A program made the translations under genes and the position numbers. Shown piece after piece: positions 14,280-36,410 of a DNA stretch of 64,000 nt (positions within the stretch are counted from its first letter, which is position 1; the number at the start of each line of letters is the position of its first letter). The notes below the pieces were generated by a model that saw only the letters and a list, made by a program, of their open reading frames with translations, was not told where the DNA came from and made no database searches. This DNA comes from Deroplatys truncata (lineage: Eukaryota > Arthropoda > Insecta > Mantodea > Mantidae). The DNA lies in assembly GCA_030765065.1 (NCBI GenBank), contig CM060990.1, forward strand, positions 414,851,198 through 414,915,197, in the 5' to 3' direction.

Positions 14280-14285
14280 CACCTT
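14280..14285. other. 6-bp target-site duplication, left copy (CACCTT)
   Basis: CACCTT immediately precedes the first base of the palindromic element and is repeated exactly after its last base at 35,460-35,465. Six-base duplications are characteristic of Polinton/Maverick integration. Confidence 0.88.
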
Positions 14286-15380
14286 AGTAGGGTATATAGG
14301 AGAGAGCTGGGCCACATTTTTGCGTTTATATGGGAAAGGATAGGGAAAACGAGGCTAGATGGGACGGTTCAAGGAGGAAAATGCGTTTATATGGGAGAGA
14401 TAGGCAATGCGAGGACTACGCTAGGTTAGAGAGGGTTGAAGGAGGGAAATACGTTTATATGGAAGAAATAGTAGAGAGGTGCTAGGCTAGACGGAAGCTG
14501 AGGAGTAGAGTATGGTTTATATGAAAGGTATAGGAAAACGAGGAGGGGTGTTAGGCTAGACAGAGTTGAAGGGTAGAGTATGTCTTTTATATGAGAAGTA
14601 TAGGAAAACGATGAGAGGTGTTAGACTAGACAGGGCTTGAAACGTAGTGCAGGGTTTATATGAGAGATATAGGAACAGGAGGAGGGGTGTTAGGCTAGAC
14701 AGAGGTTGAGGAGTAGAGTATGGTTTTAGATGAGAGATATAGGAAAACGAGGAGAGGTGTTAGGCTAGGAGGGTTTAAGTATGCGTTTATAAGGAGAGAC
14801 GAGAAAACGGAGAGAGATCCTATGTTAGGATACACAGGTGTTTAAAGCTAGAATGTGTTTTATATAGGCTAGATAGGAAACCAAAGAGATACTCAGCTAG
14901 ACAGGGGACAGGAGAGGAATGCGCTTTATGAGAGGTAGAGGATACGGGGAGTGGTGTTAGGCTAGACAGAGGTTGAGAGTAGAGTATGCGTTTATATGTT
15001 TGAGAAGTATAGGAACAGGAAGAGGGTGCTAGGCTAGACAGAGGTTGAGGAGTAGAGTATAGGTTATATGAGAGGTATAGGAAAACGAGGGGAGGTGTTA
15101 GGCTAGACAGAGGTTGAAAATAGAGTATGGTTTATATGAGTGGTATAGGAAAACGAGGAGAGGAGTTAGACTAGACAGAGGTCGAGGAGCAGAGTATGGT
15201 TTATGTGAGAGTCATAGGTAAACGAGAGAGGCGTTAGGCTAGACAGAGCTAGAGGAGTAGAGTATGGTTTATATGAGAGGTATAGGAACAGGAGGAGAGG
15301 TGTTAGGCTAGACAGATACTAAAGGAGTAGCAATATGGGTTTATATACAGGAGAGATAGGGAATAGGAGGTGCTAGACTT
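14286..15380. repeat. Terminal ~70-bp tandem repeats, left arm
   Basis: About 14 diverged units of the type 'tatggtttatatgagaggtataggaaaacgagg..ggtgttaggctagacagaggttgagg' (quoted in pieces), spaced about 65-90 bp. They form the outer end of the element. Such subterminal arrays could serve as replication or integrase-binding sequence, but that is inference. Confidence 0.85.
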
Positions 15381-15467
15381 GAAAGCGACTTTAGACGCGA
15401 ACTTAGTGGAAAACTGTTTCATGTCAATGTTCTAGACATGCCCATCACGTAACCTATTCAGGGAAAA

Positions 15468-15655
15468 AGGTGACTCGTTCAGGGGTAAAAGGTGACTGCT
15501 CAGGGAAAAAGGAGGTCCACAAAGGGAAAAAGTTGACTAGCAACGGGAAAAAGGCGACCAGTAAAGGGAAAAATGTCACCAGCAAAGGGAAAAAGGCAGC
15601 CACCAAAGGGAAAAAGGTGAGCCATAAAGGGAAAAAGGTGACCTGCAACGGGAAA
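15468..15655. repeat. 21-bp tandem repeat with open frames on both strands, left arm
   Basis: Nine units of 'ggtgaccagcaaagggaaaaa' type, 21 bp each. Because 21 is a multiple of three, the plus-strand frame (15,470-15,661) reads a Lys/Gly-rich heptad of the GKKVTSK kind. The minus-strand frame reads an FFPLLVA-type hydrophobic heptad. The frames are identical in the right arm. I consider coding unlikely but not excluded. Confidence 0.75.
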
Positions 15656-15661
15656 AGCTAA

Positions 15662-16420
15662 CCCGCTAACACTAACAGGTAAGTAATTCAGCTAGTATTG
15701 CAAGAGACTGACTGGATCATAGCAGTGTATGATTTCACAGGTAATTCAGCTAGTATCGTATGTATTTAGGCTAATTCATCTAGTATCACTGGAGGATAGA
15801 TTCCAGAGGCTAACTGCATCATGGCTCTGCATGATTTCACAGGTAATTCAGCTAGTATCTTAGGTATTTAGGCTAATTCAGCTAGTATCACAAGAGGATA
15901 GATTCTAGGGTTGGGTATAGCTTAGTGTCGTATTTCACAGGTAATTCAGAGGGTATCGTAGGTATTTAGGTTAATTCAAGTATCACAGACGTTTAGAGTA
16001 ATTCAGCTAGCATTACAGGAGGGTAGGTTCCAGGGGTCGGTTATAACATAGCTTCGTATTTCACAGATAGTTCAGGTAATATCGTAAGTATTTGAGGTAA
16101 TCGACATAGCTTCACAGATATTATTGATAATTTCGATCAGAGATTTGTATCACAGCTATTTAAGGTAAATGCAGGTGATTCAGGTTGTATCAATGGTATT
16201 TGAGTCATTTTAACAGGTAATTCATCTAGTATCATTGATATTTAGGGCAAACCAGATAGTATCACAGGTGCTCGTACTAATTTAGAGCAGGAATTCGTAT
16301 CTGAGCTAGTTAAGGTAATTTCACACGATTCGGGTAGTATCACAGGTATTTAAGTCATTTTAACAGGCAATTCAACTAGTATCACAGGTACTCATGGTAA
16401 TATAGAGAGTAATTAAATTA
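15662..16420. repeat. ~40-bp diffuse tandem repeat, left arm
   Basis: Many imperfect copies of 'aggtaattcagctagtatc' and 'acaggtatttaggctaattc'. It is AT-rich and non-coding, and mirrored at 33,325-34,083. Confidence 0.8.
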
Positions 16421-16782
16421 TAAAACATTTCTCATCCAACGTTACAACAATTTAATATACTTTTTTCTAAATCTTACAAACTTATTATATGTTAAACAGT
16501 TATTGTACGATGCGGAGAGGGATAAACTACATATTGGTTCACAAATTGAAAAGCTTTACGTCAACATACCTTTATTTTAGTTCGTTGTAGATGTCTCTCC
16601 CCTTTTATCTAGGCTTGAGACTAGCACTAGGATTGCTCCTAATGGCAGGGTTACCACCTTCCCTTCCATCTTCTTCTTTCTTCATCAGGCGCCAGCTATC
16701 TGCATATACAGCACACAGATAACCTTCATTTTTTTAAGATTGTAGACTCACGAGAAAATCTTCATATTCGACTTACATTCTT
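16421..16782. other. 3' region of polymerase gene, left arm
   Basis: On the minus strand, the stop codon of the polymerase is followed after six bases by GTAAGT, and at 16,700-16,704 by an acceptor-like 'atatgcag'. A small 3'-UTR intron (about 16,700-16,776) is therefore possible. Downstream lie an 'ataaag' polyadenylation-like signal and AT-rich sequence. The same arrangement is mirrored in the right arm. Confidence 0.3.
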
Positions 16783-19700
16783 TTAAGCACTGTTTGTAAT
16801 GGCGTAATGTCCATAGGCGTATGTCGTTATACCGTCCTCAGCAATAATTCTTTTATCGTCGTATGGTGTCAATGTAATTTTATTCACTTGTACTGTGGCA
16901 AGAGCATGCTGTCGCGACAGGATCAGATTCATGGGCGTTCTGATAATTTCACTGGTTTTAAGACAGTCAGTATAGCTCTCGAACGTAACGTACTGCTTAA
17001 TAGCACTACGTTTTATACCTTTAATCTTTTTTATCATTGACCCTTGAATATCTAAGGCATACATTTTAGGACGTATTCCAGCAAAGCGTTGAATGATTTT
17101 ACCATTAGCCTCATCTTTAAATTTTCCCAATACCTTCTTGTTTAGAGGTGAATAGGATATATGGTTGACAGGGTAATCAGCTGTATCGAGATGCTCAAGA
17201 AAACGTAGCTTATCCTGGTACACATCTTCAGTTGTTACACGATGAATGAACGAATCAGTGTCCATATATATAAGCTTCAGGTTTTCAGCTCCATAATACG
17301 GTAACAACACATCATAATGATAGTTATACATTAATGTCTTGGAGATATCCAACACACTCATACCGATGTATATAGGCTTGTTGAATACAATCTGACGAGA
17401 GGCCATACGTACAGCTTCTCTAGAGTTTTTTCATTGGTCACCAGCCGTATATCCATACGGTTACGCAGGTTCTCCATAGTTTTTCCAAACATAGCGTTGT
17501 TAAAGAGCTTGTAGAGATCCTTCTCGAAATCATTTGTAGCTTGTTGTCGTAGCCTGTTGTTAATTCCACATAAGGTTTCAACCACTGGGACTGTCGGAAT
17601 TTTAGCACACGATGGATTTTTGTTAGTCGTAGTCCATGACTAAGAGCTTGCTTCAAAGCCATGTAATGCACTACATACTTCTTTCGAGGTCCAAGATGAG
17701 GTATCAGTTTCTTTGTAGATGATTCCAATGGTTTCATACACTCTGGCAGGAAAGGTAGATCGTTGTGTAGATCGTGAAGTTCAGCAGGATACTCGATGTC
17801 GACTTCTAATATGTACCCATGAGGATCATCTTCTTGTAGTGTTTCTAAGTTGATTTCTTCAGGTGTCACCCACTGAAATCCACCAAAAGGAAGGGCGTGA
17901 CACATTGCTCACCCATATTGGTTATTAGCGTCCTCGTATGTGATAAATTGGGTTGGTCTCGACGGATAAAACTTATCCATATAAGTGTTATTAGCCTCAG
18001 CATACCGATGGGAAACTTGGCATAAACCTCCTCTTATACCTGTTTCCACCATGAGTAGTTGATCATAATCTTGTAACAGCTCCAGCTTAATTCCAGTATA
18101 CAGTAACATGGCGTCCCATGTAAGACCTGGAGAGGTAAAATAATGGGCAGGATCAACTTTGTGTGTTTTAAGGGTTTGCTCTCTGAACGTCTCAAAGACA
18201 TCAGCTAGGAGAAGTACATCCGAAGTTAAGTAGAGATCGCTGTACTCTCCCAGGTTTCTCACATTAAACAGCTCCCATACATTTCTAGCATGATCGTAGT
18301 CAGTATCAGTAATTTCTTCTTCATTTAATCTATTGTAGAAGTAGTCCTTAGGAGGCAAGCAGGTTTCGTTCAGGACATCCCATGACGTAACAAAATCATA
18401 GGGAAATACACCCTTACGGGTCATCAACTTCAATTTGTCTTCTCCAAAGTACTTTAGCGTTTCAGGATACGAGGTTAGATTTTTTACCAACTTATCCAAG
18501 CTTGTACTGAGGAATCGGAAGCTATCGACAAATCGAAGCTTTATATCTCCTACATACTTGGTGAATGAGATATAGCTTTCTTCAGAGTTAGGAATTACCT
18601 CCACACGTTCACTTGTACAACCCAGCTCCTTAACAATGAAATGAGAGTCATATCCGCTAAGGTTATGCATGAAGACTGGTATATATTTAAGTGTTTTACA
18701 GGCTAAATTACATTCATTATGAAGACTTCCACGATATTCACCGCTGATGTGATCATGGTCGCGTACTTTGTAGTTTTCTCCTGTAAAGCCTTTTCCACAC
18801 AAGTAGCATGCTGAAGAAGACTCAAAATCCTTTTGCTCTTGATCCGTAAGTTTCAGAGGCTTAGCAGATTTGTATATGTCATCAATCATTTTTGCAAGAG
18901 ATGTCAGGTACAGCATAAACTTCTGAGCAGCATCAGCACCACGATACACATAGGGTTGCTTAGGAAGACCAGTTTCGAGATGTTCAACACTGGATGTAGG
19001 CTTCACGTAAACACAGAAGCTCATTGGTGTGTGCTCTTGATAAGGGGTTGTATAGGAAGTTTCAGGATTGGGTATACACGTATGGCATGGAGTGAGAATA
19101 CTCTCAAAATCAGCATAGATGACATAAGGTACTTTCAGCATCCTCTCAACATTTTAAACTGAACAATTGATTTCTCCTTGGTAGGCATAACTACCCTTGC
19201 AACACCATGCTGATTACAGATGGTTGCATGTTCTTGCAGTTTTTCCAGTCCACTTCGTCCATATCGATCATCAAAATGTGTAAAGCAGCGCTTACAAGTA
19301 TAAACCCGTCCATTATGGTTAGTTTTCTGGTGTCGAATGAGTTTCTCAAAATTCTTTATATATACGTAGTGACGTTTTCCACTACTATCACTCAATAGTA
19401 GCAGGTCGCAGTGTTCAGGTAGTTCAATATCAACAACCTTTATCGGATACACTTCATACTTCTCATCTATCCCGAAAACGTTAATAGACATATTGTTAAA
19501 CTTCTCAAATTTAGGTATTTGAGAAAGTGGAGTAGGGTAAGAAACACAGCTGAAGTCGTACTTATCTTGAAGTTGTTTGTATTTGATGACGCGTTGAGGC
19601 TTGGTGCTCACGAATTTAGCTAATACGGAGTACATGAAACATTTCTCGTCGCTAAAGTTCTGAATGTTTATACATGCTTTCCTTGCTTCAACAGCTGACG

Positions 19701-20379
19701 GTAGTGGTATGTAGCTACTTCCTCGCAACGGATTGTACCTGTTGATACGAAGTCGAACTCCTTCCACAGCAAGCAAAGCCCAGCTGCTACCCTTAAGCTG
19801 AGACTCCTCCATTTCAGTCACCAATTTCTTGAATTTCACTTCCATCGCTGACTCCAGATCAGTTTCCAGGAAAACAGCTTGATTCCGTGTTTTAAATGTT
19901 TTGTCACAGGTTTCACCAATACTGTTAACAAATCGACACTCAGCCAGCAGATAAATTTTAACACTCTTATGAATGCTAAGCTCTTTATGCACAGCCTGGA
20001 TTATCCGTTGTTTTGCCTCTTGCAGATACATATTCAGGTCCTTAGGTGACTCGCATCGTATAAAATACGATTTCAATCGTCCTTCGAATGAAGTTTCGTA
20101 TTCTTTCATATCACAGTCCTCCATTGTTGACAGCAACTGATGTTTAGTTGGCTCCAATCTTCTTTTCTTCTGAGGGCTGCTTAATTCACATATATCTTCG
20201 TGTCGCTGCCCCTTATAACCATCTTTGAAGGTTACATTACAATGTTTACATTTGAAGAGCTTCTTGCAGCTCATCTCGTGTCTTCTCTTGTCATAACCTC
20301 GGAGGAACTTCTTCCCACATTTTCCGCATGCATATCCAGTAGCGCTTGGAATAATATCCTTATACGCTGAGTTATTCAT
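16783..20379 (-). pseudogene. Polinton-type protein-primed DNA polymerase B, left-arm copy, broken
   Basis: About 1,196 codons, transcribed outward. Two C-x2-C-x12-H-x3-C fingers sit at residues 18-38 and 44-64 and a third Cys/His cluster at 362-388. Then follow Exo I (YADFES), a Cys/His endonuclease-VII-like insertion (CYLC...RDHDH...HNECN), Exo II (HNLSGYDSHF), Exo III (YLTSDVLLLADVFE), Pol motif A (EDANNQYG), motif B (KLFNNAMFGK) and motif C (YMDTDS, 17,251-17,268). This order is that of DNA_pol_B_2 proteins of Polintons and adintoviruses, which copy linear DNA from a protein primer. Lesions shared with the right copy are TGA at 17,909-17,911 and frameshifts near 17,555-17,565 and 17,405-17,415. 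Private lesion: a 1-nt loss in an A-run near 19,153. No terminal-protein domain was recognised. Confidence 0.95.
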
Positions 20380-20439
20380 CTTTATTCTTGATGTAATAAC
20401 GTATTAATCACTGATCAATGAAATGTAGCCCTCTTCACC

Positions 20440-20760
20440 TTGATACCACTTTAGAAAGCTGATTATTCTTGGAGAGAACACGATGTTAACACCTCAGAGA
20501 TGATCAACAGAATGAATTTCAATGCTAGAGGATGCTCTATTTATAGAGGAAGCACGAACCTTTATGCATCAATTATATATCGTATTAACCCTTCTTCAAG
20601 GAAATGTACTCTTCTTCACATTGATAACACTTTAGATTATTTTCTGAGAGAACAGCGATGTTAACACCTCAGAGATGATCAACAGAATGAATTTCAATAC
20701 TCAAGTTCGCTCTATTTATAGAGAAAGCACGAACCATTTTTAATCAATTATATCCTGATT
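20440..20760 (-). promoter_or_regulatory. Duplicated TATA promoter module of left polymerase
   Basis: Two copies, 175 bp apart, of a block containing the palindromic TATA box CTCTATAAATAGAG (20,535-20,548 and 20,710-20,723 on the minus strand). The blocks also share 'cattctgttgatcatctctgaggtgttaac' in shorter pieces, and 'ggttcgtgctt' just upstream of each TATA. The proximal TATA lies about 155 bp before the ATG, leaving a ~125-nt leader. Promoter function is inferred from position and the TATA motif. Confidence 0.65.
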
Positions 20761-20824
20761 ATTAATACTAAAAACGGTGATGTAGCGTGTAAGCTCTTAT
20801 ATATTTCAAGTCGTGTTACACTGA

Positions 20825-21430
20825 TGTTCGAGCGTCTCCGTATAGCTTCGTATGTTTAGAGAGAAAGTGTAAAGTATTGTGAAGATGTTATGTATTGTTC
20901 GGCTATAATCGTACAGATTCGGAGAGCTTGACTGGTGAAGGCGATGAACGATCCATCGACCGAGCAGGAGGCAAGCAGTCCCTTCGCGCAACGAAACCTA
21001 GATGCAAAAAGAAAGAAAATCGTGTTAGATGAGAAACCACCCAGACATTCGCATGCAGACCATGGAAAACCATGAAAAAATATGTCAGAGTGAGCGTCCA
21101 ACGGAACTCGAACCAGGGACTATAAAAGCACACGTGAAAGATACAAATTATATAGAATGAAAGAAATCGGTGACGATGAGAAACCACTACAGCATTAGGC
21201 AGCAGACCAGCGAAAATCGTGAGAAACGTAAGGTCAGAGTAAACAATCGATGGAAATCTAACCCCTGAACCCTAGAAATTCACGTGAAAAAATACAAATA
21301 AAATGGTTTGAAAGGGAATCGTGATAGCAAATACCTCTACTGCATTAGGCGGCAGACCAGCGAAAATCGCGAGAAACGTAAGGTGAGAGTGCTCCTCCCT
21401 ACAGGAATCGAATCCGAGACATCTCGAATG
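20825..21430. repeat. 147-bp tandem units with tRNA-like B boxes, left arm
   Basis: 'gatgagaaacc'-type starts lie at about 21,028, 21,175 and 21,323, spaced 147-148 bp. Each unit includes 'cagcagaccagcgaaaatcg', 'gtcagagt' and, reversed, a B-box-like stretch ('aactcgaaccaggg', 'gaatcgaatccgag'). Related single units occur outside the element (2,470-3,420; 37,270-37,510), so a SINE was probably captured and amplified. Confidence 0.75.
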
Positions 21431-23307
21431 CAAAGTGCTGCCGTTATTGTCTGAACAAAACAGTAAAAACAGACCTCATTAGCACTCGTCATGCTTAAGC
21501 ACGTTAACTTTCACCATATGACGTCACAGTCGGGGACAGTTTGACTGTTGCAGCCATGTCGGGACATGCATATTTTAGACATCTCATATTTTAGAGTCAT
21601 ATACAGAAGTTTCATACCAACGTACTCACTACGCTCGCAAAGATAATCTAAAATTTCATCGTTGAAATACCTTGGAAATAGTGTAGACGTTTTTCCGCAC
21701 TTATTTAATTAAATTCATGTATATACCCTATTATTTAGTGATTTTTTCAATAATTTCTTCCTCTCATTCGTCAAAAATCAGTGTACAATACGCATTTTTA
21801 TACGTTTCAATGTCCGTTTATTTTTAAAACCGCTGCATTTGTCCGTAATTACGAGCAATAATTTTTTTTCAGATTTACTCAGATGTGTAGCTTGTAGAAT
21901 CGAATTAGGAAATGTTTTAATAAATGTATTGTATTTTTAGGTTAAAGCATCTACATTTCAAAGCTGCCATGACCGTTATTTGTATTTAGTATAAAGATTG
22001 TTATATTTTCATTTTTAAGTCTTCCTTTGTTATAGATAATGTCTTGCAATCTATTTTAAATTTCTTTTAAAACCACCTGAACCCTAGAAATTCACGTGAA
22101 AAAATACAAATAAAATGGTTTGAAAGGGAATCGTGATAGCAAATACCTCTACTGCATTAGCCAGCAGACCAGCGAAAATCGTGAGAAACGTAAGGTTAGA
22201 GTGCTCGTCCCTACGGGAATCGAATCCGAGACATCTCGAATGCAAAGTGCTGCCGTTATTGTCTGAACAAAACAGTAAAAACAGACCTCATTAGCAGTCG
22301 ACAGTGCTTAAACACGTTAACTTTCACCATATGACGTTACAGTCGGGGACAGTTTGACTGTCGCCATCATGTCGGGACATGCATCTCATATACACAAGTT
22401 TCATACCAACGTACTCACTACGCTCGCAAAGATAGTCTGAGATTTCATCGTTGCAATACTTTGAAAATAGTGTAGAAGTTTTTCAGCCCTTATTTAATTA
22501 AATTCATGTATATACGCTATTATTTAGTGATTTTTTCAATAATTTCTTCCTGTCATTCGTCAAAAATCATTGTACAATACGCATTTTTATACGTTTTAAT
22601 GTCCGTTTATTTTTAAAACCGCTGCATTTGTCCGTAATTACGAACAATAATTTTTTTCAGATTTACTCAGATGTGTAGCTTGTAGAATTGAATTAGGAAA
22701 TGTTTTAATAAATGTTTTGTATTTTTTAACTTAAAGCATCTACATTTTTTAAAGCTGCCATAACCGTTATTTGCATTTAGTATAAAGATTGTTATATTTT
22801 CATTTTTAAGACTTCCTTTGTTAAAGATGTCTTGCAATCTATTTTTAATTTTCTTTTGCAAAGATAATCTAAAATTTCATCGTTGAAATACTTTGGAAAT
22901 AGTGTAGAAGTTTTTCCACCCTTATTTTATTAAAATTCATGTATATACCCTATTATTTAGTGATTTTTTCAATAATTTCTTCCTCTCATTCGTCAAAAAT
23001 CAGTGTACAATATGCATTTTTATACGTTTTAATGTTCGTTTATTTTTAAAACCGCTGCATTTTCCCGTAATTACGAGCAATAATTTTTTTTCAAATTTAC
23101 TCAGATGTGTAGCTTGTAGAATCGAATTAGGAAATGTTTTAATAAATGATTTGTATTTTTAGGTGAAAAACAACGATCTTCTTCTGACTGTGTATAATTA
23201 TAATCAAGACCGATTTGTATTTATTATAAAGATTGTTATATTTTCATTTTTATGGCTTCCTTTGTTTAAGATAATGTCTTGCAATCTATTTTTAAATTTC
23301 TTTTAAA
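21270..23307. repeat. Higher-order A/B repeat array, left arm (B-A-B-A-A)
   Basis: B units (about 21,270-21,639 and 22,075-22,428) begin near the amplified tRNA-like segment and end at 'cactacgctcgc'. A units (21,640-22,074; 22,429-22,858; 22,859-23,307) are AT-rich and include 'gtccgtttatttttaaaacc' and 'tgtgtagcttgtagaat'. Copies of the same type differ at only a few percent of positions by eye. No coding function is seen. Confidence 0.85.
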
Positions 23308-24003
23308 ACCAAAGCGAACGTTATCAACTATAATGGCTACCTTCATGTATCGGAAAGCTAACATGCATGCTTCAGCCGTCTTTTAGAAGCGTACCTTTCA
23401 TGTCGGCATCGGACGGGAGCGAGCAGCTGGCGGAGAGGAGAAGGCTTGCGAAAGGCGGCTGAGGGGTGGCACCTGGAGGGAGTAAGGTAGGATGAAAGGC
23501 CGGCTTCATGAGGCTATGAGAGCTACACGAGGCCGCCAGTACGGCATGGCACGCCGTAAGGGTCGGACCTATACGTAGTAGCATGCATATACATCTACAG
23601 CTCGCGCCAGCGTCTTACGTAATCTAGTTTTTACGCTCATTATACCATTTAAATATACATTCATCTAAGAGATATAATATTCGCAAGGATGACAGATGTC
23701 CAAATATACATAACAAAGAAATTAGTTACTGATATAAATGTTATATCGCACGTTCACCATTTCATTTTTAATTACTTTTTTTATTTTATTCGAGGATGAC
23801 TTTGTATTCATGTCACGGGATTCAATCCTAGTCCTCCAACCCGACTTGGAACAACAATCAATAACGAGCTACAATCCAAGGATATAATCGGTAATAATAC
23901 AAATATTTTTTTTGATAAAGACCGTCAAATAGAAAGGCCTGTAAACGTATGTATTTCCCCTCACTTTCCCTCTTCCCCCACCCTACAGTAGATAATATAT
24001 GGT
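23308..24003. other. Inner GC-rich segment, left arm
   Basis: Unique within the arm and mirrored at 24,551-25,246. It contains a 70-codon minus-strand frame with a true ATG (23,372-23,584, beginning MLLRIGPTLTACHAVLA) that is kept in the right arm with one residue change. It matches nothing I know, and conservation is expected from arm identity alone, so I do not call it a gene. Confidence 0.5.
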
Positions 24004-24550
24004 GACTTGAACCCTCAAAGGATATGCCGCCATCTGATAAGGTTCTTTGATCTTTGCCGACAAAACCCGCCGCCTCCCTTTGAGGCCTATATGCCGCCTG
24101 CTCGCTCGTGCCACTAGCCGCGCCCCCTCCCCCCATGTGGTCTGGTCACGTGCTGGCGGTCACCCCTCCCCCACCCCTTCCCTTGTGACCTCACCCTTAA
24201 ATGCTGCTGGACACCCGATCCCCCTACCCCATCCTTTCTAATCCTATCCCGTACTCTGGGCACGCCCTCTCTGGAGAACAATGGGCTATTGTTCAAATCG
24301 CCTAAGCCAGCGTTGGAGTAGAGCAGAGAGGAGGGGGCATCATGCTCCAGTAGCTTTTAAGGGTGAAACCACAAAGGTTAAGTTTTTTCACGTGTGCTAT
24401 ACTTTCACCGCAAAACAGAGACACAGGACAATGCATTATTGTTCTCATCGTAAATGGCGGTGTCGGAATAGCAAAAAGCGGGGGTGGGAGTCGGCGGCAT
24501 AGAAGAAAGGAACTTATCAGTGGTTGACATCAGCTTTGAAGCTGCGTGTT
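24004..24550. other. Diverged centre of the palindrome
   Basis: The two sides stop matching closely at 24,003 and 24,551, but traces of inverted homology continue to the middle: 'ctgataag', 'ttgccgac' / 'tatgccgccgac', 'ttaagggtga' and 'ccacaaagg / ccttgtgac'. The symmetry point is a short hairpin, GAACAAT-gggct-ATTGTTC (24,276-24,294). The segment is GC-rich and related to the repeat at 7,281-7,670. It is non-coding. Confidence 0.75.
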
Positions 24551-25246
24551 GCCATATATTATCTACTGTAGGGTGGGGGAAGAGGGGAAGTGAGGGGAAA
24601 TACATACGTTTACAGGCCTTTCTATTTGACGGTCTTTATCAAAAAAAGATATTTGTATTATTACCGATTATATCCTTGGATTGTAGCTCGTTATTGATTG
24701 TTGTTCCAAGTCGGGTTGGAGGACTAGGATTGAATCCCGTGACATGAATACAAAGTCATCCTCGAATAAAATAAAAAAAGTAATTAAAAATAAAATGGTG
24801 AACGTGCGATATTACATTTATATCAGTAACTAATTTCTTTGTTATGTATATTTGGACATCTGTCATCCTTGCGAATATTATATCTCTTAGATGAATGTAT
24901 ATTTAAATGGTATAGTGAGCGTAAAAACTAGATTACGTAAGACGCTGGCGCGAGCTGTAGCTGTATATGCATGCTACTACGTATAGGTCCGACCCTTACG
25001 GCGTGCCATGCCGTACTGGCGGTCTCGTGTAGCTCTCATAGCCTCATGAAGCCGGCCTTTCATCCTACCTTACTCCCTCCAGGTGCCACCCCTCAGCCGC
25101 CTTTCGCAAGCCTTCTCCTCTCCGCCAGCTGCTCGCTCCCGTCCGATGCCGACATGAAAGGTACGCTTCTAAAAGATGGCTGAAGCATGCATGTTAGCTT
25201 TCCGATACATGAAGGTAGCCATTATAGTTGATAACGTTCGCTTTGG
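24551..25246. other. Inner GC-rich segment, right arm
   Basis: Mirror of 23,308-24,003, including the 70-codon frame, here on the plus strand at 24,971-25,183 with Val in place of Ala. No recognisable gene. Confidence 0.5.
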
Positions 25247-28200
25247 TTTTAAAAGAAATTTAAAAATAGATTGCAAGACATTATCTTAAACAAAGGAAGT
25301 CTTAAAAATGAAAATATAACAATCTTTATACTAAACACAAATCGGTCTTGATTATAATTATAAACAGTCAGAAGAAGATCGTTGTTTTTCACCTAAAAAT
25401 ACAATACATTTATTAAAACATTTCCTAATTCGATTCTACAAGCTACACATCTGAGTAAATCTGAAAAAAAATTATTGCTCGTAATTACGGGAAAATGCAG
25501 CGGTTTTAAAAATAAACGAACATTAAAACGTATAAAAATGCATATTGTACACTGATTTTTGACGAATGAGAGGAAGAAATTATTGAAAAAATCACTAAAT
25601 AATAGGAAATATACATGAATTTTAATTAAATAAGGGTGGAAAAACTTCTACACTATTTCCAAAGTATTTAAACGATGAAATTTTAGATTATCTTTGCAAA
25701 AGAAATTTAAAAATAGATTGCAAGACATCTTTAACAAAGGAAGTCTTAAAAATGAAAATATAACAATCTTTATACTAAATGCAAATAACGGTTATGGCAG
25801 CTTTAAAAAATGTAGATGCTTTAAGCTAAAAAATACAAAACATTTCCTAATTCGATTCTACAAGCTACACATCTGAGTAAATCTGAAAAAAATTATTGTT
25901 CGTAATTACGGACAAATGCAGCGGTTTTAAAAATAAACGGACATTAAAACGTATAAAAATGCGTATTGTACACTGATTTTTGACGAACGAGAGGAAGAAA
26001 TTATTGAAAAAATCACTAAATAATAGGGTATATACATGAATTTAATTAAATAAGGGTTGAAAAACTTCTACGCTATTTCCAAAGTATTTCAACGATGAAA
26101 TCTTAGACTATCTTTGCGAGCGTAGCGAGTACGTTGGTATGAAACTTGTGTATATGAGATGCATGTCCCGACATGATGGCGACAGTCAAACTGTCCCCGA
26201 CTGTAACGTCATATGGTGAAAGTTAACGTGTTTAAGCACTGTCGACTGCTAATGAGGTCTGTTTTTACTGTTTTGTTCAGACAATAACGGCAGCACTTTG
26301 CATTCGAGATGTCTCGGATTCGATTCCCGTAGGGACGAGCACTCTAACCTTACGTTTCTCACGATTTTCGCTGGTCTGCTGGCTAATGCAGTAGAGGTAT
26401 TTGCTATCACGATTCCCTTTCAAACCATTTTATTTGTATTTTTTCTCGTGAATTTCTAGGGTTCAGGTGGTTTTAAAAGAAATTTAAAATAGATTGCAAG
26501 ACATTATCTATAACAAAGGAAGACTTAAAAATGAAAATATAACAATCTTTATACTAAATACAAATAACGGTCATGGCAGCTTTAAAATGTAGATGCTTTA
26601 ACCTAAAAAATACAATACATTTATTAAAACATTTCCTAATTCGATTCTACAAGCTACACATCTGAGTAAATCTAAAAAAAAATTATTGCTCGTAATTACG
26701 GACAAATGCAGCGGTTTTAAAAATAAACGGACATTAAAACGTATAAAAATGCGTATTGTACACTGATTTTTGACGAATGAGAGGAAGAAATTATTGAAAA
26801 AAATCACTAAATAATAGGGTATATACATGAATTTTAATTAAATAAGGGTGGAAAAACTTCTACACTATTTCCAAAGTATTTCAACGATGAAATTTTAGAT
26901 TATCTTTGCAAAAGAAATTTAAAAATAGATTGTAAGACATCTTTAACAAAGGAAGTCTTAAAAATGAAAATATAACAATCTTTATACTAAATGCAAATAA
27001 CGGTTATGGCAGCTTTAACAAATGTAGATGCTTTAAGCTAAAAAATACAAAACATTTCCTAATTCGATTCTACAAGCTACACATCTGAGTAAATCTGAAA
27101 AAAATTATTGTTCGTAATTACGGACAAATGCAGCGGTTTTAAAAATAAACGGACATTAAAGCGTATAAAAATGCGTATTGTACACTGATTTTTGACGAAT
27201 GAGAGGAAGAAATTATTGAAAAAATCACTAAATAATAGGGTATATACATGAATTTAATTAAATAAGGGCTGAAAAACTTCTACACTATTTTCAAAGTATT
27301 GCAACGATGAAATCTCAGACTATCTTTGCGAGCGTAGCGAGTACGTTGGTATGAAACTTGTGTATATGAGATGCATGTCCCGACATGATGGCGACAGTCA
27401 AACTGTCCCCGACTGTAACGTCATATGGTGAAAGTTAACGTGTTTAAGCACTGTCGACTGCTAATGAGGTCTGTTTTTACTGTTTTGTTCAGACAATAAC
27501 GGCAGCACTTTGCATTCGAGATGTCTCGGATTCGATTCCCGTAGGGACGAGCACTCTAACCTTACGTTTCTCACGATTTTCGCTGGTCTGCTGGCTAATG
27601 CAGTAGAGGTACTTGCTATCACGATTCCCTTTCAAACCATTTTATTTGTATTTTCTCTCGTGAATTTCTAGGGTTCAGGTGGTTTTAAAAGAAATTTAAA
27701 ATAGATTGCAAGACATTATCTATAACAAAGGAAGACTTAAAAATGAAAATATAACAATCTTTATACTAAATACAAATAACGGTCATGGCAGCTTTAAAAT
27801 GTAGATGCTTTAACCTAAAAATACAATACATTTATTAAAACATTTCCTAATTCGATTCTACAAGCTACACATCTGAGTAAATCTGAAAAAAATTATTGCT
27901 CGTAATTACGGACAAATGCAGCGGTTTTAAAAATAAACGGACATTAAAACGTATAAAAATGCGTATTGTACACTGATTTTTGACGAATGAGAGGAAGAAA
28001 TTATTGAAAAAATCACTAAATAATAGGGTATATACATGAATTTAATTAAATAAGTGCGGAAAAACTTCTACACTATTTCCAAAGTATTTCAACGATGAAA
28101 TTTTCGATTATCTTTGCGAGCGTAGTGAGTACGTTGGTATGAAACTTCTGTATATGACTCTAAAATATGAGATGTCTAAAATATGCATGTCCCGACATGG

Positions 28201-28490
28201 CTGCAACAGTCAAACTGTCCCCGACTGTGACGTCATATGGTGAAAGTTAACGTGCTTAAGCATGACGAGTGCTAATGAGGTCTGTTTTTACTGTTTTGTT
28301 CAGACAATAACGGCAGCACTTTGCATTCGAGATGTCTCGGATTCGATTCCTGTAGGGACGAGCACTCTCACCTTACGTTTCTCGCGATTTTCGCTGGTCT
28401 GCCGCCTAATGCAGTAGAGGTATTTGCTATCACGATTCCCTTTCAAACCATTTTATATGTATTTTTTCACGTGAATTTCTAGGGTTCAGG
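25246..28490. repeat. Higher-order A/B repeat array, right arm (A-A-B-A-A-B-A-B)
   Basis: A units at 25,246-25,697, 25,698-26,115, 26,473-26,907, 26,908-27,327 and 27,684-28,115; B units start at 26,116, 27,328 and 28,116 with 'gcgagcgtag(c/t)gagtacg'. The first two B starts are 1,212 bp apart. Relative to the left arm there is one extra A-A-B block, which accounts for the 1.2-kb length difference between arms. B units carry two adjacent hairpins, catgtc-cc-gacatg and gacagt-caa-actgtc. Confidence 0.85.
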
Positions 28491-28935
28491 GGTTAGATTT
28501 CCATCGATTGTTTACTCTGACCTTACGTTTCTCACGATTTTCGCTGGTCTGCTGCCTAATGCTGTAGTGGTTTCTCATCGTCACCGATTTCTTTCATTCT
28601 ATATAATTTGTATCTTTCACGTGTGCTTTTAGAGTCCCTGGTTCGAGTTCTGTTGGACGCTCACTCTGACATATTTTTTCATGGTTTTCCATGGTCTGCA
28701 TGCGAATGTCTGGGTGGTTTCTCATCTAGCACGATTTTCTTTCTTTTTGCATCTAGGTTTTGTTGCGCGAAGGGACTGCTTGCCTCCTGCTCGGTCGATG
28801 GATCGTTCATCACCTTCACCAGTCAAGCTCTCCGAATCTGTACGATTATAGCCGAACAATACATAACATCTTCACAATACTTTACACCTTCTCTCTAAAC
28901 ATACGAAGCTATACGGAGACGCTCGAACATCAGTG
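28330..28935. repeat. 147-bp tandem units with tRNA-like B boxes, right arm
   Basis: Mirror of 20,825-21,430. In this orientation the boxes read 'ctcggattcgattcc' and 'ccctggttcgagttc', matching the Pol III B-box pattern GGTTCGANTCC. Frames of 62-96 codons here are shadows. Confidence 0.75.
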
Positions 28936-28994
28936 TAACACGACTTGAAATATATAAGAGCTTACACGCTACATCACCGTTTTTAGTATTGATA

Positions 28995-29310
28995 ATCAGG
29001 ATATAATTGATTAAAAAAGGTCCATGCTTTCTCTATAAATAGAGCGAACTTGTGTATTGAAATTCATTCTGTTGATCATCTCTGAGGTGTTAACGTCGCT
29101 GTTCTCTCAGAAAATAATCTAAAGTGTTATCAATGTGAAGAAGAGTACATTTCCTTGAAGAAGGGTTAATACGATATATAATTGATGCATAAAGGTTCGT
29201 GCTTCCTCTATAAATAGAGCATCCTCTAGCATTGAAGTTGATTCTGTTGATCATCTCTGAGGTGTTAACATCCTGTTCTCTCCAAGAATAATCAGCTTTC
29301 TAAAGTGGTA
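28995..29310 (+). promoter_or_regulatory. Duplicated TATA promoter module of right polymerase
   Basis: CTCTATAAATAGAG occurs at 29,031-29,044 and 29,206-29,219, again 175 bp apart, each followed by 'ttctgttgatcatctctgag'. The second lies about 155 bp before the ATG at 29,375. Both copies have kept the 14-bp palindromic TATA unchanged although the surrounding sequence has drifted. Confidence 0.65.
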
Positions 29311-29374
29311 TCAAGGTGAAGAGGGCTACATTTCATTGATCAGTGATTAATACGTTATTACATCAAGAATAAAG

Positions 29375-32300
29375 ATGAATAACTCAGCGTATAAGGATAT
29401 TATTCCAAGCGCTACTGGATATGCATGCGGAAAATGTGGGAAGAAGTTCCTCCGAGGTTATGACAAGAGAAGACACGAGATGAGCTGCAAGAAGCTCTTC
29501 AAATGTAAAAATTGTAATGTAACCTTCAAAGATGGTTATAAGGGGCAGCGACACGAAGATATATGTGAAATAAGCAGCCCTCAGAAGAAATGAAGATTGG
29601 AGCCAACTAAACATCAGTTGCTGTCAACAATGGAGGACTGTGGTATGAAAGAATACGAAACTTCATTCGAAGGACGATTGAAATCGTATTTTATACGATG
29701 CGAGTCACCTAAGGACCTGAATATGTATCTGCAAGAGGCAAAACAATGGATAATCCAGGCTGTGCATAAAGAGCTTAGCATTCATAAGAGTGTTAAAATT
29801 AATCTGCTGGCTGAGTGTCGATTTGTTAACAGTATTGGTGAAACCTGTGACAAAACATTTAAAACACGGAATCAAGCTGTTTTCCTGGAAACTGAACTGG
29901 AGTCAGCGATGGAAGTGAAATTCAAGAAATTGGTGACTGAAATGGAGGAGTCTCAGCTTAAGGGTAGCAGCTGGGCTTTGCTTGCTGTGGAAGGAGTTCG
30001 ACTTCGTATCAACAAGTACAATCCGTTGCGAGGAAGTAGCTACATACCACTACCGTCAGCTGTTGAAGCAAGGAAAGCATGTATAAACATTCAGAACTTT
30101 AGCGACGAGAAATGTTTCATGTACTCCGTATTAGCTAAATTCGTGAGCACCAAGCCTCAACGCGTCAGCAAATACAAACAACTTCAAGATAAGTACGACT
30201 TCAGCTGTGTTTCTTACCCTACTCCACTTTCTCAAATACCTAAATTTGAGAAGTTTAACAATATGTCTATTAACGTTTTCGGGCTAGATGAGAAGTATGA
30301 AGTGTATCCGATAAAGGTTGTTGATATTGAACTACCTGAACACTGCGACCTGCTACTATTGAGTGATAGTAGTGGAAAACATCACTACGTATATATAAAG
30401 AATTTTGAGAAACTCATTCGACACCAGAAAACTAACCATAATGGACGGGTTTATACTTGTAAGCGCTGCTTTACACATTTTGATGATCGATATGGACGAA
30501 GTGGACTGGAAAAACTGCAAGAACATGCAACCATCTGTAATCAGCATGGTGTTGCAAGGGTAGTTATGCCTACCAAGGAGAAATCAATTGTTCAGTTTAA
30601 AAATGGTGAGAGGATGCTGAAAGTACCTTATGTCATCTATGCTGATTTTGAGAGTATTCTCACTCCATGCCATACGTGTATACCCAATCCTGAAACTTCC
30701 TATACAACCCCTTATCAAGAGCACACACCAATGAGCTTCTGTGTTTACGTGAAGCCTACATCCAGTGTTGAACATCTCGAAACTGGTCTTCCTAAGCAAC
30801 CCTATGTGTATCGTGGTGCTGATGCTGCTCAGAAGTTTATGCTGTACCTGACATCTCTTGCAAAAATGATTGATGACATATACAAATCTGCTAAGCCTCT
30901 GAAACTTACGGATCAAGAGCAAAAGGATTTTGAGTCTTCTTCAGCATGCTACTTGTGTGGAAAAGGCTTTACAGGAGAAAACTACAAAGTACGCGACCAT
31001 GATCACATCAGCGGTGAATATCGTGGAAGTCTTCATAATGAATGTAATTTAGCCTGTAAAACACTTAAATATATACCAGTCTTCATGCATAACCTTAGCG
31101 GATATGACTCTCATTTCATTGTTAAGGAGCTGGGTTGTACAAGTGAACGTGTGGAGGTAATTCCTAACTCTGAAGAAAGCTATATCTCATTCACCAAGTA
31201 TGTAGGAGATATAAAGCTTCGATTTGTCGATAGCTTCCGATTCCTCAGTACAAGCTTGGATAAGTTGGTAAAAAATCTAACCTCGTATCCTGAAACGCTA
31301 AAGTACTTTGGAGAAGACAAATTGAAGTTGATGACCCGTAAGGGTGTATTTCCCTATGATTTTGTTACGTCATGGGATGTCCTGAACGAAACCTGCTTGC
31401 CTCCTAAGGACTACTTCTACAATAGATTAAATGAAGAAGAAATTACTGATACTGACTACGATCATGCTAGAAATGTATGGGAGCTGTTTAATGTGAGAAA
31501 CCTGGGAGAGTACAGCGATCTCTACTTAACTTCGGATGTACTTCTCCTAGCTGATGTCTTTGAGACGTTCAGAGAGCAAACCCTTAAAACACACAAAGTT
31601 GATCCTGCCCATTATTTTACCTCTCCAGGTCTTACATGGGACGCCATGTTACTGTATACTGGAATTAAGCTGGAGCTGTTACAAGATTATGATCAACTAC
31701 TCATGGTGGAAACAGGTATAAGAGGAGGTTTATGCCAAGTTTCCCATCGGTATGCTGAGGCTAATAACACTTATATGGATAAGTTTTATCCGTCGAGACC
31801 AACCCAATTTATCACATACGAGGACGCTAATAACCAATATGGGTGAGCAATGTGTCACGCCCTTCCTTTTGGTGGATTTCAGTGGGTGACACCTGAAGAA
31901 ATCAACTTAGAAACACTACAAGAAGATGATCCTCATGGGTACATATTAGAAGTCGACATCGAGTATCCTGCTGAACTTCACGATCTACACAACGATCTAC
32001 CTTTCCTGCCAGAGTGTATGAAACCATTGGAATCATCTACAAAGAAACTGATACCTCATCTTGGACCTCGAAAGAAGTATGTAGTGCATTACATGGCTTT
32101 GAAGCAAGCTCTTAGTCATGGACTACGACTAACAAAAATCCATCGTGTGCTAAAATTCCGACAGTCCCAGTGGTTGAAACCTTATGTGGAATTAACAACA
32201 GGCTACGACAACAAGCTACAAATGATTTCGAGAAGGATCTCTACAAGCTCTTTAACAACGCTATGTTTGGAAAAACTATGGAGAACCTGCGTAACCGTAT

Positions 32301-32962
32301 GGATATACGGCTGGTGACCAATGAAAAAACTCTAGAGAAGCTGTACGTATGGCCTCTCGTCAGATTGTATTCAACAAGCCTATATACATCGGTATGAGTG
32401 TGTTGGATATCTCCAAGACATTAATGTATAACTATCATTATGATGTGTTGTTACCGTATTATGGAGCTGAAAACCTGAAGCTTATGTATATGGACACTGA
32501 TTCGTGCATTCATCGTGTAACAACTGAAGATGTGTACCAGGATAAGCTACGTTTTCTTGAGCATCTCGATACAGCTGATTACCCTGTCAACCATATATCC
32601 TATTCACCTCTAAACAAGAAGGTATTGGGAAAATTTAAAGATGAGGCTAATGGTAAAATCATTCAACGCTTTGCTGGACTACGTCCTAAAATGTATGCCT
32701 TAGATATTCAACGGTCAATGATAAAAAAGATTAAAGGTATAAAACGTAGTGCTATTAAGCAGTACGTTACGTTCGAGAGCTATACTGACTGTCTTAAAAC
32801 CAGTGAAATTATCAGAATCTGATCCTGTCGCGACAGCATGCTCTTGCCACAGTACAAGTGAATAAAATTACATTGACACCATACGACGATAAAAGAATTA
32901 TTGCTGAGGACGGTATAACGACATACGCCTATGGACATTACGCCATTACAAACAGTGCTTAA
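29375..32962 (+). pseudogene. Polinton-type protein-primed DNA polymerase B, right-arm copy, broken
   Basis: Same architecture as the left copy: two C2HC fingers at residues 18-38 and 44-64, a third finger, Exo I Asp424/Glu426, Cys/His insertion about 525-561, Exo II about 572-582, Exo III about 717-727, motif A Asp817, then motif B (about 32,241-32,276) and motif C YMDTDS (32,487-32,504). The start is the ATG at 29,375, which keeps both fingers. Lesions shared with the left copy: TGA at 31,844-31,846, where a Trp codon (TGG) would be expected after the NxYG motif, and frameshifts near 32,190-32,200 and 32,340-32,350. Private lesions: an AGA-to-TGA stop at 29,591-29,593 and a 10-bp deletion near 32,816. 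The exonuclease region is continuous here, unlike in the left arm. Confidence 0.95.
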
Positions 32963-33324
32963 AAGAATGTAAGTCGAATATGAAGATTTTCTCGTGAGTC
33001 TACAATCTTAAAAAAATGAAGGTTATCTGTGTGCTGTATATGCAGATAGCTGGCGCCTGATGAAGAAAGAAGAAGATGGAAGGGAAGGTGGTAACCCTGC
33101 CATTAGGAGCAATCCTAGTGCTAGTCTCAAGCCTAGATAAAAGGGGAGAGACATCTACAACGAACTAAAATAAAGGTATGTTGACGTAAAGCTTTTCAAT
33201 TTGTGAACCAATATGTAGTTTATCCCTCTCCGCATCGTACAATAACTGTTTAACATATAATAAGTTTGTAAGATTTAGAAAAAAGTATATAAATTGTTGT
33301 AACGTTGGATGAGAAATGTTTTAT
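32963..33324 (+). other. 3' region of polymerase gene, right arm
   Basis: Just after the stop codon, GTAAGT at 32,969 and a pyrimidine-poor but well-placed 'tatatgcag' ending at 33,045 could bound a 77-nt 3'-UTR intron. A 26-codon frame (MKKEEDGREGG...) follows at about 33,059, and an 'aaaataaag' polyadenylation-like signal lies near 33,166. All of it is mirrored in the left arm, so conservation gives no independent support. Confidence 0.3.
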
Positions 33325-34083
33325 AATTTAATTACTCTCTATATTACCATGAGTACCTGTGATACTAGTTGAATTGCCTGTTAAAATGACTTAAATACCT
33401 GTGATACTACCCGAATCGTGTGAAATTACCTTAACTAGCTCAGATACGAATTCCTGCTCTAAATTAGTACGAGCACCTGTGATACTATCTGGTTTGCCCT
33501 AAATATCAATGATACTAGATGAATTACCTGTTAAAATGACTCAAATACCATTGATACAACCTGAATCACCTGCATTTACCTTAAATAGCTGTGATACAAA
33601 TCTCTGATCGAAATTATCAATAATATCTGTGAAGCTATGTCGATTACCTCAAATACTTACGATATTACCTGAACTATCTGTGAAATACGAAGCTATGTTA
33701 TAACCGACCCCTGGAACCTACCCTCCTGTAATGCTAGCTGAATTACTCTAAACGTCTGTGATACTTGAATTAACCTAAATACCTACGATACCCTCTGAAT
33801 TACCTGTGAAATACGACACTAAGCTATACCCAACCCTAGAATCTATCCTCTTGTGATACTAGCTGAATTAGCCTAAATACCTAAGATACTAGCTGAATTA
33901 CCTGTGAAATCATGCAGAGCCATGATGCAGTTAGCCTCTGGAATCTATCCTCCAGTGATACTAGATGAATTAGCCTAAATACATACGATACTAGCTGAAT
34001 TACCTGTGAAATCATACACTGCTATGATCCAGTCAGTCTCTTGCAATACTAGCTGAATTACTTACCTGTTAGTGTTAGCGGGT
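33325..34083. repeat. ~40-bp diffuse tandem repeat, right arm
   Basis: Mirror of 15,662-16,420, with units such as 'gatactagctgaattacct'. Non-coding. Confidence 0.8.
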
Positions 34084-34089
34084 TAGCTT

Positions 34090-34277
34090 TTCCCGTTGCA
34101 GGTCACCTTTTTCCCTTTATGGCTCACCTTTTTCCCTTTGGTGGCTGCCTTTTTCCCTTTGCTGGTGACATTTTTCCCTTTACTGGTCGCCTTTTTCCCG
34201 TTGCTAGTCAACTTTTTCCCTTTGTGGACCTCCTTTTTCCCTGAGCAGTCACCTTTTACCCCTGAACGAGTCACCTT
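34090..34277. repeat. 21-bp tandem repeat, right arm
   Basis: Mirror of 15,468-15,655. The encoded heptad frames on both strands (34,083-34,274 minus; 34,096-34,290 plus) are the same as in the left arm. Confidence 0.75.
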
Positions 34278-34364
34278 TTTCCCTGAATAGGTTACGTGAT
34301 GGGCATGTCTAGAACATTGACATGAAACAGTTTTCCACTAAGTTCGCGTCTAAAGTCGCTTTCA

Positions 34365-35459
34365 AGTCTAGCACCTCCTATTCCCTATCTCTCCTGTATA
34401 TAATCCCATATTGCTACTCCTTTAGTATCTGTCTAGCCTAACACCTCTCCTCCTGTTCCTATACCTCTCATATAAACCATACTCTACTCCTCTAGCTCTG
34501 TCTAGCCTAACGCCTCTCTCGTTTACCTATGACTCTCACATAAACCATACTCTGCTCCTCGACCTCTGTCTAGTCTAACTCCTCTCCTCGTTTTCCTATA
34601 CCACTCATATAAACCATACTCTATTTTCAACCTCTGTCTAGCCTAACACCTCCCCTCGTTTTCCTATACCTCTCATATAACCTATACTCTACTCCTCAAC
34701 CTCTGTCTAGCCTAGCACCCTCTTCCTGTTCCTATACTTCTCAAACATATAAACGCATACTCTACTCTCAACCTCTGTCTAGCCTAACACCACTCCCCGT
34801 ATCCTCTACCTCTCATAAAGCGCATTCCTCTCCTGTCCCCTGTCTAGCTGAGTATCTCTTTGGTTTCCTATCTAGCCTATATAAAACACATTCTAGCTTT
34901 AAACACCTGTGTATCCTAACATAGGATCTCTCTCCGTTTTCTCGTCTCTCCTTATAAACGCATACTTAAACCCTCCTAGCCTAACACCTCTCCTCGTTTT
35001 CCTATATCTCTCATCTAAAACCATACTCTACTCCTCAACCTCTGTCTAGCCTAACACCCCTCCTCCTGTTCCTATATCTCTCATATAAACCCTGCACTAC
35101 GTTTCAAGCCCTGTCTAGTCTAACACCTCTCATCGTTTTCCTATACTTCTCATATAAAAGACATACTCTACCCTTCAACTCTGTCTAGCCTAACACCCCT
35201 CCTCGTTTTCCTATACCTTTCATATAAACCATACTCTACTCCTCAGCCTCCGTCTAGGCTAGCACCTCTCTACTATTTCTTCCATATAAATGTATTTCCC
35301 TCCTTCAACCCTCTCTAGCCTAGCGTCAGTCCTCGTATTCCCTATCTCTCCCATATAAACGCATTTTGCTCCTTGAACCGTCCCATCTAGCCTCGTTTAT
35401 CCTATCCTTTCCCATATAAACGAAAAAAAGTGGTCCAGCTCTCTCCTATATACCCTACT
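34365..35459. repeat. Terminal ~70-bp tandem repeats, right arm
   Basis: Mirror of the left terminal array; units read 'ctctgtctagcctaacacc' and 'cctatacctctcatataaacc'. Small indels distinguish the two outermost 100 bp, for example 'gggaaaacgagg' on the left against 'taaacgagg' on the right (same strand sense). Confidence 0.85.
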
Positions 35460-35465
35460 CACCTT
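35460..35465. other. 6-bp target-site duplication, right copy (CACCTT)
   Basis: Exact repeat of 14,280-14,285, directly after the terminal CCCTACT of the palindromic element. Confidence 0.88.
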
Positions 35466-35667: not shown

Positions 35668-35984
35668 CACTTTGCAATAGAACGTGAAGGATCAGTAAAG
35701 AAATTGGTCTGCAATTAGTACCTATACATCCTTTCACATTTTGGTACTTAGCATTGCTAATGAACGTGGATTTCTCGACAGTCTGAAATTTCATAATATC
35801 AGGGATACATTCTTCTATATACAGAGTGAGCCAAAAGACTCCGAAACGCCTGCGTGGTATTTTTCCTTCCGCGTCCTCGGCGCTCGTTGCCGTCTGACGC
35901 TATCATAGAAAGGCGCGGATGAAACCATACAACATTTTTAAAACTACTTTTAAAAGCTTTACTTACCAACTTTACGAAGGAAGA

Positions 35985-36256
35985 TGGTGAAACTGGCCAC
36001 CGTCGTTGTCCATACATTTTTGTCACCTTTTTAGGAAACTATCCATCACTCGCCGTAGTTCACGCTGAGAAATTTCTTGGCGGATATTTTGTTCTAATTC
36101 TTCCAGAGTGTGTGGATTTGTCTTATACACTTTATGTTTTAAGATACCTCGGAGGGGTATTTTATGAACAATATTACCGGCTGCGCGGTGTTTTTCCACG
36201 GGTGTGTGGAAATATGATAAAACACGATAACGCACTGCTGCTATAAACAAAGTCAC
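35985..36256 (-). pseudogene. Mariner-like transposase C-terminal fragment
   Basis: The minus-strand frame reads ...LKHKVYKTNPHTLEELEQNIR QEISQRELRRVMDSFLKR (quoted in two parts), continuing after a frame change to the terminal KCMDNDGGQF. This matches the C-terminus of insect mariner-like transposases of the DUF4817/HTH type. The catalytic triad is absent. Confidence 0.85.
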
Positions 36257-36410
36257 GTTGTTGTGGTTTTACTCTGCAGTGTGAAGTCCAGTTTTGAGTT
36301 GACGTAATGTCATGTGTTATTACGAGTTATTTATTATTTTGTCCTGTACTTAGTCACAAAGTATATTATGGCTCAGTATATGTTTTCTACTGCACAGCCT
36401 GTATTTATTT

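Follow-up and report, generated by a model that had tools for sequence, protein, structure and literature searches.

We analysed a window of 64,000 nucleotides from the mantis Deroplatys truncata (GenBank assembly GCA_030765065.1, contig CM060990.1, positions 414,851,198 to 414,915,197 of the forward strand), which contains a transposable element whose two halves mirror each other. An inverted repeat spans positions 14286-35459 of the window (21,174 bp) and consists of a left arm, a centre and a right arm. Each arm carries a broken gene for a family-B DNA polymerase (pPolB), both ends of the element have the terminal sequence AGTAGGGTATATAGG, and a perfect 6-bp target-site duplication lies directly outside both ends. 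Judged by its ends, duplication and polymerase, the element is a Polinton derivative; by its gene content it fails the definition of an autonomous Polinton. It probably arose when the polymerase half of a parent element was copied by fold-back, with the central repeat as the seed, and the integrase and capsid half was lost. The main features are as follows.

14280..14285: target-site duplication CACCTT, left copy, read directly
14286..23985: left arm, 9,700 bp, defined by inverted alignment to the right arm
16798..20385, minus strand: left-arm pPolB pseudogene (tblastn, Pfam)
23986..24568: central hairpin-forming repeat, 583 bp, 52% GC, proposed fold-back seed
24569..35459: right arm, 10,891 bp, defined by inverted alignment to the left arm
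29369..32947, plus strand: right-arm pPolB pseudogene (tblastn, Pfam)
29594..31846, plus strand: longest open part of pPolB, 750 codons from stop to stop, with an open reading frame (ORF) of 749 amino acids from 29597
35460..35465: target-site duplication CACCTT, right copy, read directly

The mirrored arms were recovered by two methods. The left and right halves gave a minus-strand blastn match of 9,032 columns at 98.5% identity, and a MAFFT alignment of the arms over left-arm 14286-23985 holds 83 mismatches in 9,688 aligned columns. As a control, 20 draws of pairs of 9.7-kb segments were made from the flanks and the 11 overlapping draws were dropped; in the 9 pairs compared, the longest inverted match was 72 columns. 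The right arm is longer than the left mainly because a tandem repeat of ~1,212 bp has an additional copy there, visible as a 1,200-column gap in the MAFFT alignment. The outer flanks are unlike each other, and the mirror symmetry ends exactly at the element termini. Long palindromes are hard to assemble and this locus is known from the assembly alone, which would suit a foldback chimera or a false join. However, a foldback read would mirror the flanks, and here the symmetry stops at ends bounded by the 6-bp duplication. The arms also differ at 83 sites, with changes on both arms where these could be polarised, and by the 1.2-kb copy difference, making an assembly artefact very improbable. Least probable of all is that two separate Polintons inserted in opposite directions and were trimmed by deletion. 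This would supply two polymerase copies, but two insertions would leave unlike duplications at their outer ends, and the mirror continues across one and the same set of internal repeats as far as the centre.

The polymerase is the only recognisable gene. The region 14000-36900 is overlapped by 81 stop-to-stop frames of at least 60 codons, and 29 frame pieces of the element, mostly from the right arm because the arms mirror each other, were scanned with Pfam. Only pieces of the polymerase gene rose above the cut-off, with matches to PF03175 (PolB; E=1.1e-14 in the right arm and 2.7e-15 in the left), PF02945 (endonuclease VII) and DUF7128, the last being a match on the N-terminal piece of the same PolB protein. 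In these 29 pieces Pfam matched no retrovirus-like (rve) integrase and no capsid, ATPase or protease gene. With no capsid, ATPase or protease match, the element can at best be called a defective derivative of a Polinton and not an autonomous one. In the 749-amino-acid ORF, Endonuclease_7 covers residues 447-489 and DNA_pol_B_2 residues 495-715. The N-terminal pPolB piece gave zinc-finger matches below the cut-off, and C-x2-C and H-x-C spacings can be seen by eye. A profile search of PDB sequences gave 85 matches; the 60 listed are all zinc-finger proteins, aligned to the N-terminal part, and include no polymerase.

Both polymerase copies are disrupted. Searches by tblastn with five relatives (P0001, P0002, P0003, P0006 and P0015) recovered a near-complete, interrupted PolB protein in each arm. 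Three breaks are common to the arms: an in-frame stop just past a conserved DANNxYG stretch, near 17907 on the left and 31845 on the right, and two frameshifts, near 17558 and 17412 on the left, corresponding to positions near 32197 and 32341 on the right. Three others are private, namely a frameshift near 19151 in the left arm, and an early stop near 29591 and a frameshift near 32816 in the right arm. With both polymerase copies broken, this copy of the element is presumably inactive now.

The element resembles Polintons (Mavericks) in its AGT-type ends, its 6-bp target-site duplication and its family-B polymerase of viral or organellar type. In vertebrate Mavericks the end motif is (AGT)2 or (AG)3 and the duplications are 6 bp (PMC8097293); AGTAGG, found here, is close to that motif and not identical. 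Intact vertebrate Mavericks, which carry several other genes, have terminal repeats of 46-1,447 bp (PMC8097293), whereas the repeats here are ~9.7 kb. Among the papers listed by a literature search there was no report of a palindromic Polinton, and the term 'head-to-head' in PMC12721341 refers to gene orientation only.

The polymerase has 1,472 protein relatives at E≤0.001. Among the 120 listed, the best is 55% identical and there is no near copy; those with names come from insects and from the scallop Pecten maximus, and the closest of them are true bugs (Halyomorpha halys 52%, Rhodnius prolixus 48-57%, Nilaparvata lugens 50%), names that by themselves would make an insect host probable. The hemipteran PolB proteins, at 48-57% identity, align along the 749-amino-acid ORF and cover 54-100% of it, and several have endonuclease VII in precomputed Pfam annotation; they are listed as single proteins. 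In viral contigs, 3 stretches matched a pattern in the search with the ORF and 34 matched in the search with an alignment, and none was confirmed as a locus. Genome contigs gave 8 loci with PolB relatives, filed under bacterial or archaeal metagenome-assembled genomes, which are in our view eukaryotic or viral contaminants. Three of the 8 were scanned with Pfam: L001 (a 42% relative), L005 (31%) and L006 (29%), which are perhaps misbinned eukaryotic virus-like elements. In L006 an rve integrase above the cut-off lies ~5 kb away from the PolB relative; the integrase match in L005 is weak and falls below the cut-off, and the Pfam scan of L001 found none. An integrase beside PolB relatives, clear in L006 and weak in L005, lends modest support to a Polinton-type family. 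L001 and L005 also have weak endonuclease VII matches below the cut-off, L001 has Bro-N, and L006 carries TBP and TFIIB-like genes.

An earlier note on this DNA had described a fully palindromic Polinton-type element with a 6-bp duplication and a duplicated polymerase-side end, carrying only pPolB and lacking the integrase and capsid half. The assignment to Polintons agrees with the AGT-type ends, duplication and PolB found here, CACCTT was read at both junctions of element and flank, and the polymerase-side end is indeed present twice, since both termini have the same sequence and the arms mirror each other. The gene content also holds for what Pfam recognises, with the addition that the polymerase gene is disrupted in both arms. 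'Fully palindromic' needs qualifying: the arms are inverted copies by both alignment methods, but the centre is not a faithful mirror beyond its 17-bp ends, and the right arm has its extra tandem copy.

The centre of the element is the part that the earlier note had passed over. The repeat at 23986-24568 has perfect 17-bp inverted ends, CAGTAGATAATATATGG, adjoining TA. Its two halves resemble each other in register over their first 60 nt, where 41 of 58 aligned letters are alike (score 17; 500 shuffles reach 0 at most), and again over a second stretch at mirrored offsets, where 37 of 44 are alike (score 36; 500 shuffles reach 28 at most). When the centre is folded as DNA together with the 16 adjoining arm bases at either end, the prediction has z=-9.9 relative to 20 shuffles, a value to which the mirrored ends contribute. 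The centre also has a relative among the left-flank repeats, at ~7.1-7.7 kb, with a blastn match of 66% identity over 133 columns (E=2e-6) and local scores of 107 and 71 on the two strands, compared with a maximum of 69 over both strands in 200 dinucleotide-preserving shuffles. The flank stretch itself (7068-7660) is GC-rich and repeated, with ~82-bp tandem repeats at 7068-7240, is related to the centre on both strands, and possibly belongs to a host foldback repeat family. We read the centre as a foldback host repeat resembling a miniature inverted-repeat transposable element (MITE). Independent support for this reading comes from its relative in the flank and from the likeness that remains between its two halves.

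Two other histories would explain the centre differently. A palindrome without a spacer might have formed first and received the repeat later, exactly at its midpoint. The arms end in mirrored CCCACCC/GGGTGGG beside TA, so that they would meet if the repeat were removed, and one may conjecture that perfect palindrome centres are hot spots for insertion. Against this, the element holds 1,882 TA dinucleotides, so the chance that a later insertion struck the exact centre is about 1 in 1,900, and a spacer-free palindrome of such size should be very unstable. We consider this sequence of events unlikely. Slightly less likely still is a lineage that is palindromic by inheritance and replicates as hairpins, in which the arms stay similar while the loop may drift apart. 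Arms that are 99.1% alike, together with centre-half stretches that are 71% and 84% alike in register (aligned letters), would fit such a lineage. However, a foldback repeat accounts for the centre equally well, and none of the 8 related loci, which are contig pieces of 3 to 16 kb, contains an inverted repeat of at least 40 nt.

We favour fold-back copying seeded at the central repeat, which would proceed in four steps. First, a hairpin-forming, MITE-like, TA-flanked host repeat would have sat in the middle of the parent element, as such a repeat sits in the centre today. Second, a single strand ending at this repeat may have folded on the inverted ends and been extended along the polymerase arm to the element end, so that everything beyond the central repeat would be lost. 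Third, the product came to be bounded by the one 6-bp duplication seen here, either because an inverted dimer integrated or because repair in place ended at the other terminal repeat. Finally, both arms would have decayed without visible selection, and conversion between the arms would have homogenised at least two stretches and spread three polymerase breaks to both arms. Fold-back at the central repeat would account for a hairpin repeat standing exactly at the centre, for the polymerase-side sequence of both ends and for the missing genes. One genome end is present twice, head to head, with the missing rest judged by the Pfam scans. A snap-back style origin, which the earlier note had also proposed, is the best reading of arms, ends and centre.

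Fold-back has precedents in other systems. In yeast, single-stranded DNA folds back at inverted repeats that have diverged and are separated by a spacer (PMC10164571). The likeness lies in the repeats and the single strand; the yeast events give dicentric chromosomes, whereas here the mirror copy stops at a terminal repeat (PMC10164571). Snap-back genomes are reported for adeno-associated virus (AAV); in them, part of the genome is duplicated in self-complementary form and the ends are of a single kind (PMC8235507). AAV differs in virus family and replication, and its snap-back genomes were found in virus particles, where ours is an integrated copy (PMC8235507).

Mirror dimers of one end also arise from protein-primed linear genomes. 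Palindromic defective genomes are known in adenovirus, and palindromic forms in the linear yeast plasmid pGKL1 and in phi29-like phages. The adenovirus and pGKL1 palindromes are extrachromosomal, unlike the copy described here.

Several observations weigh against fold-back at a host repeat. The halves of the centre have little likeness between their two matching stretches. No second copy of the 17-bp ends occurs in the window at up to 3 mismatches, and the flank relative at 7.1-7.7 kb has no matching inverted ends. Because the 17-bp ends and TA flanks belong to the mirrored arms, any palindrome would show such ends, and they are not independent proof of a transposon. The trace of fold-back copying consists of the structure itself, at a single locus in an assembly. 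Finally, one fold-back event before integration leaves the 5.7% divergence of the outer ends unexplained.

This divergence is part of a mosaic along the arms, which the earlier note had also missed. From the end to the centre, successive stretches hold 12 mismatches in 211 bp, 1 in 2,431, 4 in 342, 0 in 1,879, 43 in 3,556 and 23 in 1,281. The arms thus differ by 5.7% in the outer 211 bp, by 0-0.04% in two tracts and by 1.2-1.8% elsewhere.

14286..14496, plus strand: outermost end, apparently unconverted, with 12 mismatches in 211 bp (5.7%) relative to its mirror at 35248-35459
14497..16927: putative homogenised tract 1, with 1 mismatch in 2,431 bp
17270..19148: putative homogenised tract 2, without a mismatch over 1,879 bp; the three pPolB breaks common to both arms are all here

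Under the inner rate, the clean tracts would have P near 2e-13 (2,431 bp) and 1e-11 (1,879 bp). The outer end also differs from the unconverted inner arm (19149-23985), with 12 of 211 positions mismatched (5.7%) against 66 of 4,837 (~1.4%; Fisher p=7.9e-5, or p=5.6e-5 with slightly different bounds). The mosaic suggests gene conversion from arm to arm in at least two stretches. Since the shared polymerase breaks all lie in tract 2, they can be explained as mutations of one arm copied to the other, and the three private breaks all lie outside both clean tracts. The absence of any shared break outside the clean tracts indicates that the palindrome probably arose while the polymerase was still intact, with the caution that the numbers are small. 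Two other accounts of the outer ends were tried. Conversion from other units of the ~69-bp array near the ends gave no consistent match. If 5.7% reflected the age of the whole palindrome, several shared breaks would be expected by our estimate (~0.2 breaks per private substitution), but the unconverted coding stretches hold none.

Of 16 arm differences in the polymerase region, the nine within the right-arm 749-amino-acid ORF make up the set examined, and all nine change a residue. Homologues place five of the changes in the left arm and two in the right, with two unclear. One of the nine is at a third position, without the excess that selection would give, though a sample of nine is too small for a test (p=0.29). 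Residue changes in both arms appear as expected without selection.

The timing of the fold-back can be placed before integration or after it, and the estimates that follow hold without requiring the central repeat as the seed. We lean slightly, and tentatively, toward an origin in place. An ordinary integrated Polinton with terminal inverted repeats would have broken in its integrase half. Repair would have started with fold-back at the central repeat and gone on with copying along the polymerase arm, until the new strand annealed to the terminal repeat at the opposite end. This explains both the target-site duplication and the divergent outer 211 bp, which would be the two original terminal repeats, and it puts both junctions within inverted homologies. 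On the other hand, it requires ~9.5 kb of copying and two junctions. The lack of shared polymerase breaks outside the tracts also suggests that the element was still young at the time, in which case the bulk of the 5.7% must date from before it integrated.

An origin before integration is possible as well, if somewhat more doubtful. Snap-back would have occurred during putative protein-primed, strand-displacing replication off the chromosome, and an integrase supplied in trans would have inserted the product. One template switch suffices, the target-site duplication lies outside both ends, and the lack of shared polymerase breaks outside the homogenised tracts looks as if the polymerase was intact at formation. 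Strand displacement would supply the long single strands required. The AAV snap-back genomes are a precedent from another replication system (PMC8235507). However, the ends of a fold-back product are identical at birth, and the outer 211 bp are far more divergent than the inner arm. The polymerase is only lightly decayed, which speaks against drift over a time long enough to produce 5.7%. This origin would need either some effect at the edges or ends exchanged with another genome. The divergent outer ends are therefore natural for an origin in place and awkward for one before integration, provided the ends of the parent already differed. An intact polymerase at formation fits either an active element, copied before integration, or a young insertion. 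The earlier note had placed the palindrome before integration, which is one of two origins that fit, since repair in place gives the same structure and duplication and better explains the outer ends. Its further suggestion, that two identical ends suffice for integration, is unsurprising and adds no new inference, because the ends of canonical Polintons are inverted repeats of each other.

The remaining parts of the arms are repeats. From the end inwards each arm has ~69-bp repeats, a stretch of short tandem repeats without a long ORF and the outward-reading pPolB; inward of pPolB follow a stretch resembling the flank, AT-rich repeats and then the centre.

14474..15316, plus strand: subterminal array of the left arm, ~12 repeats of ~69 bp (TRF)
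34428..35270, minus strand: subterminal ~69-bp array of the right arm, mirror of 14474-15316 (TRF)
20825..21375: stretch without a long ORF, ~70% identical to flank 2572-3385; also in the right arm
21260..23311: AT-rich repeats at shifts of 432, 811 and 1,221 bp, 86-91% alike
25244..28117: ~1,212-bp tandem repeat of the right arm, 2.4 copies (TRF)

The left-flank segment 2572-3385 is itself a tandem-like repeat, ~70% identical to 20825-21375 of the element. Near the right end of the element, 35860-36820 holds an inverted repeat with arms of ~190-230 bp, ~90% alike and 583 bp apart, perhaps another small transposon. Further right, 44192-44716 encodes an N-terminal fragment of a mariner-type transposase (PF17906, E=2.9e-11; 16 relatives), and tandem repeats of ~140 bp (60616-61030) and ~178 bp (63281-63747) lie in the right part of the window. 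There was no tRNA or Rfam match.

Polinton replication is mostly inferred from gene content, and a mirror-image derivative within a single target-site duplication would be a physical trace of fold-back copying of a Polinton. The two origins carry different implications. If the palindrome formed before integration, it would speak for strand-displacing replication with a single-stranded phase, and for animals harbouring defective satellites. It is conceivable, though we would not rate it as probable, that Polintons of this host replicate extrachromosomally by protein priming and shed palindromic half-genomes that are integrated in trans, with this locus as a Polinton satellite akin to a defective interfering genome. 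If the palindrome formed in place, it shows how an element of 15-20 kb can become a long palindrome by way of its inverted terminal repeats and a hairpin repeat, after which gene conversion acts between the arms. Either way, the locus is a fossil that suggests how virus-like elements may collapse into palindromes.

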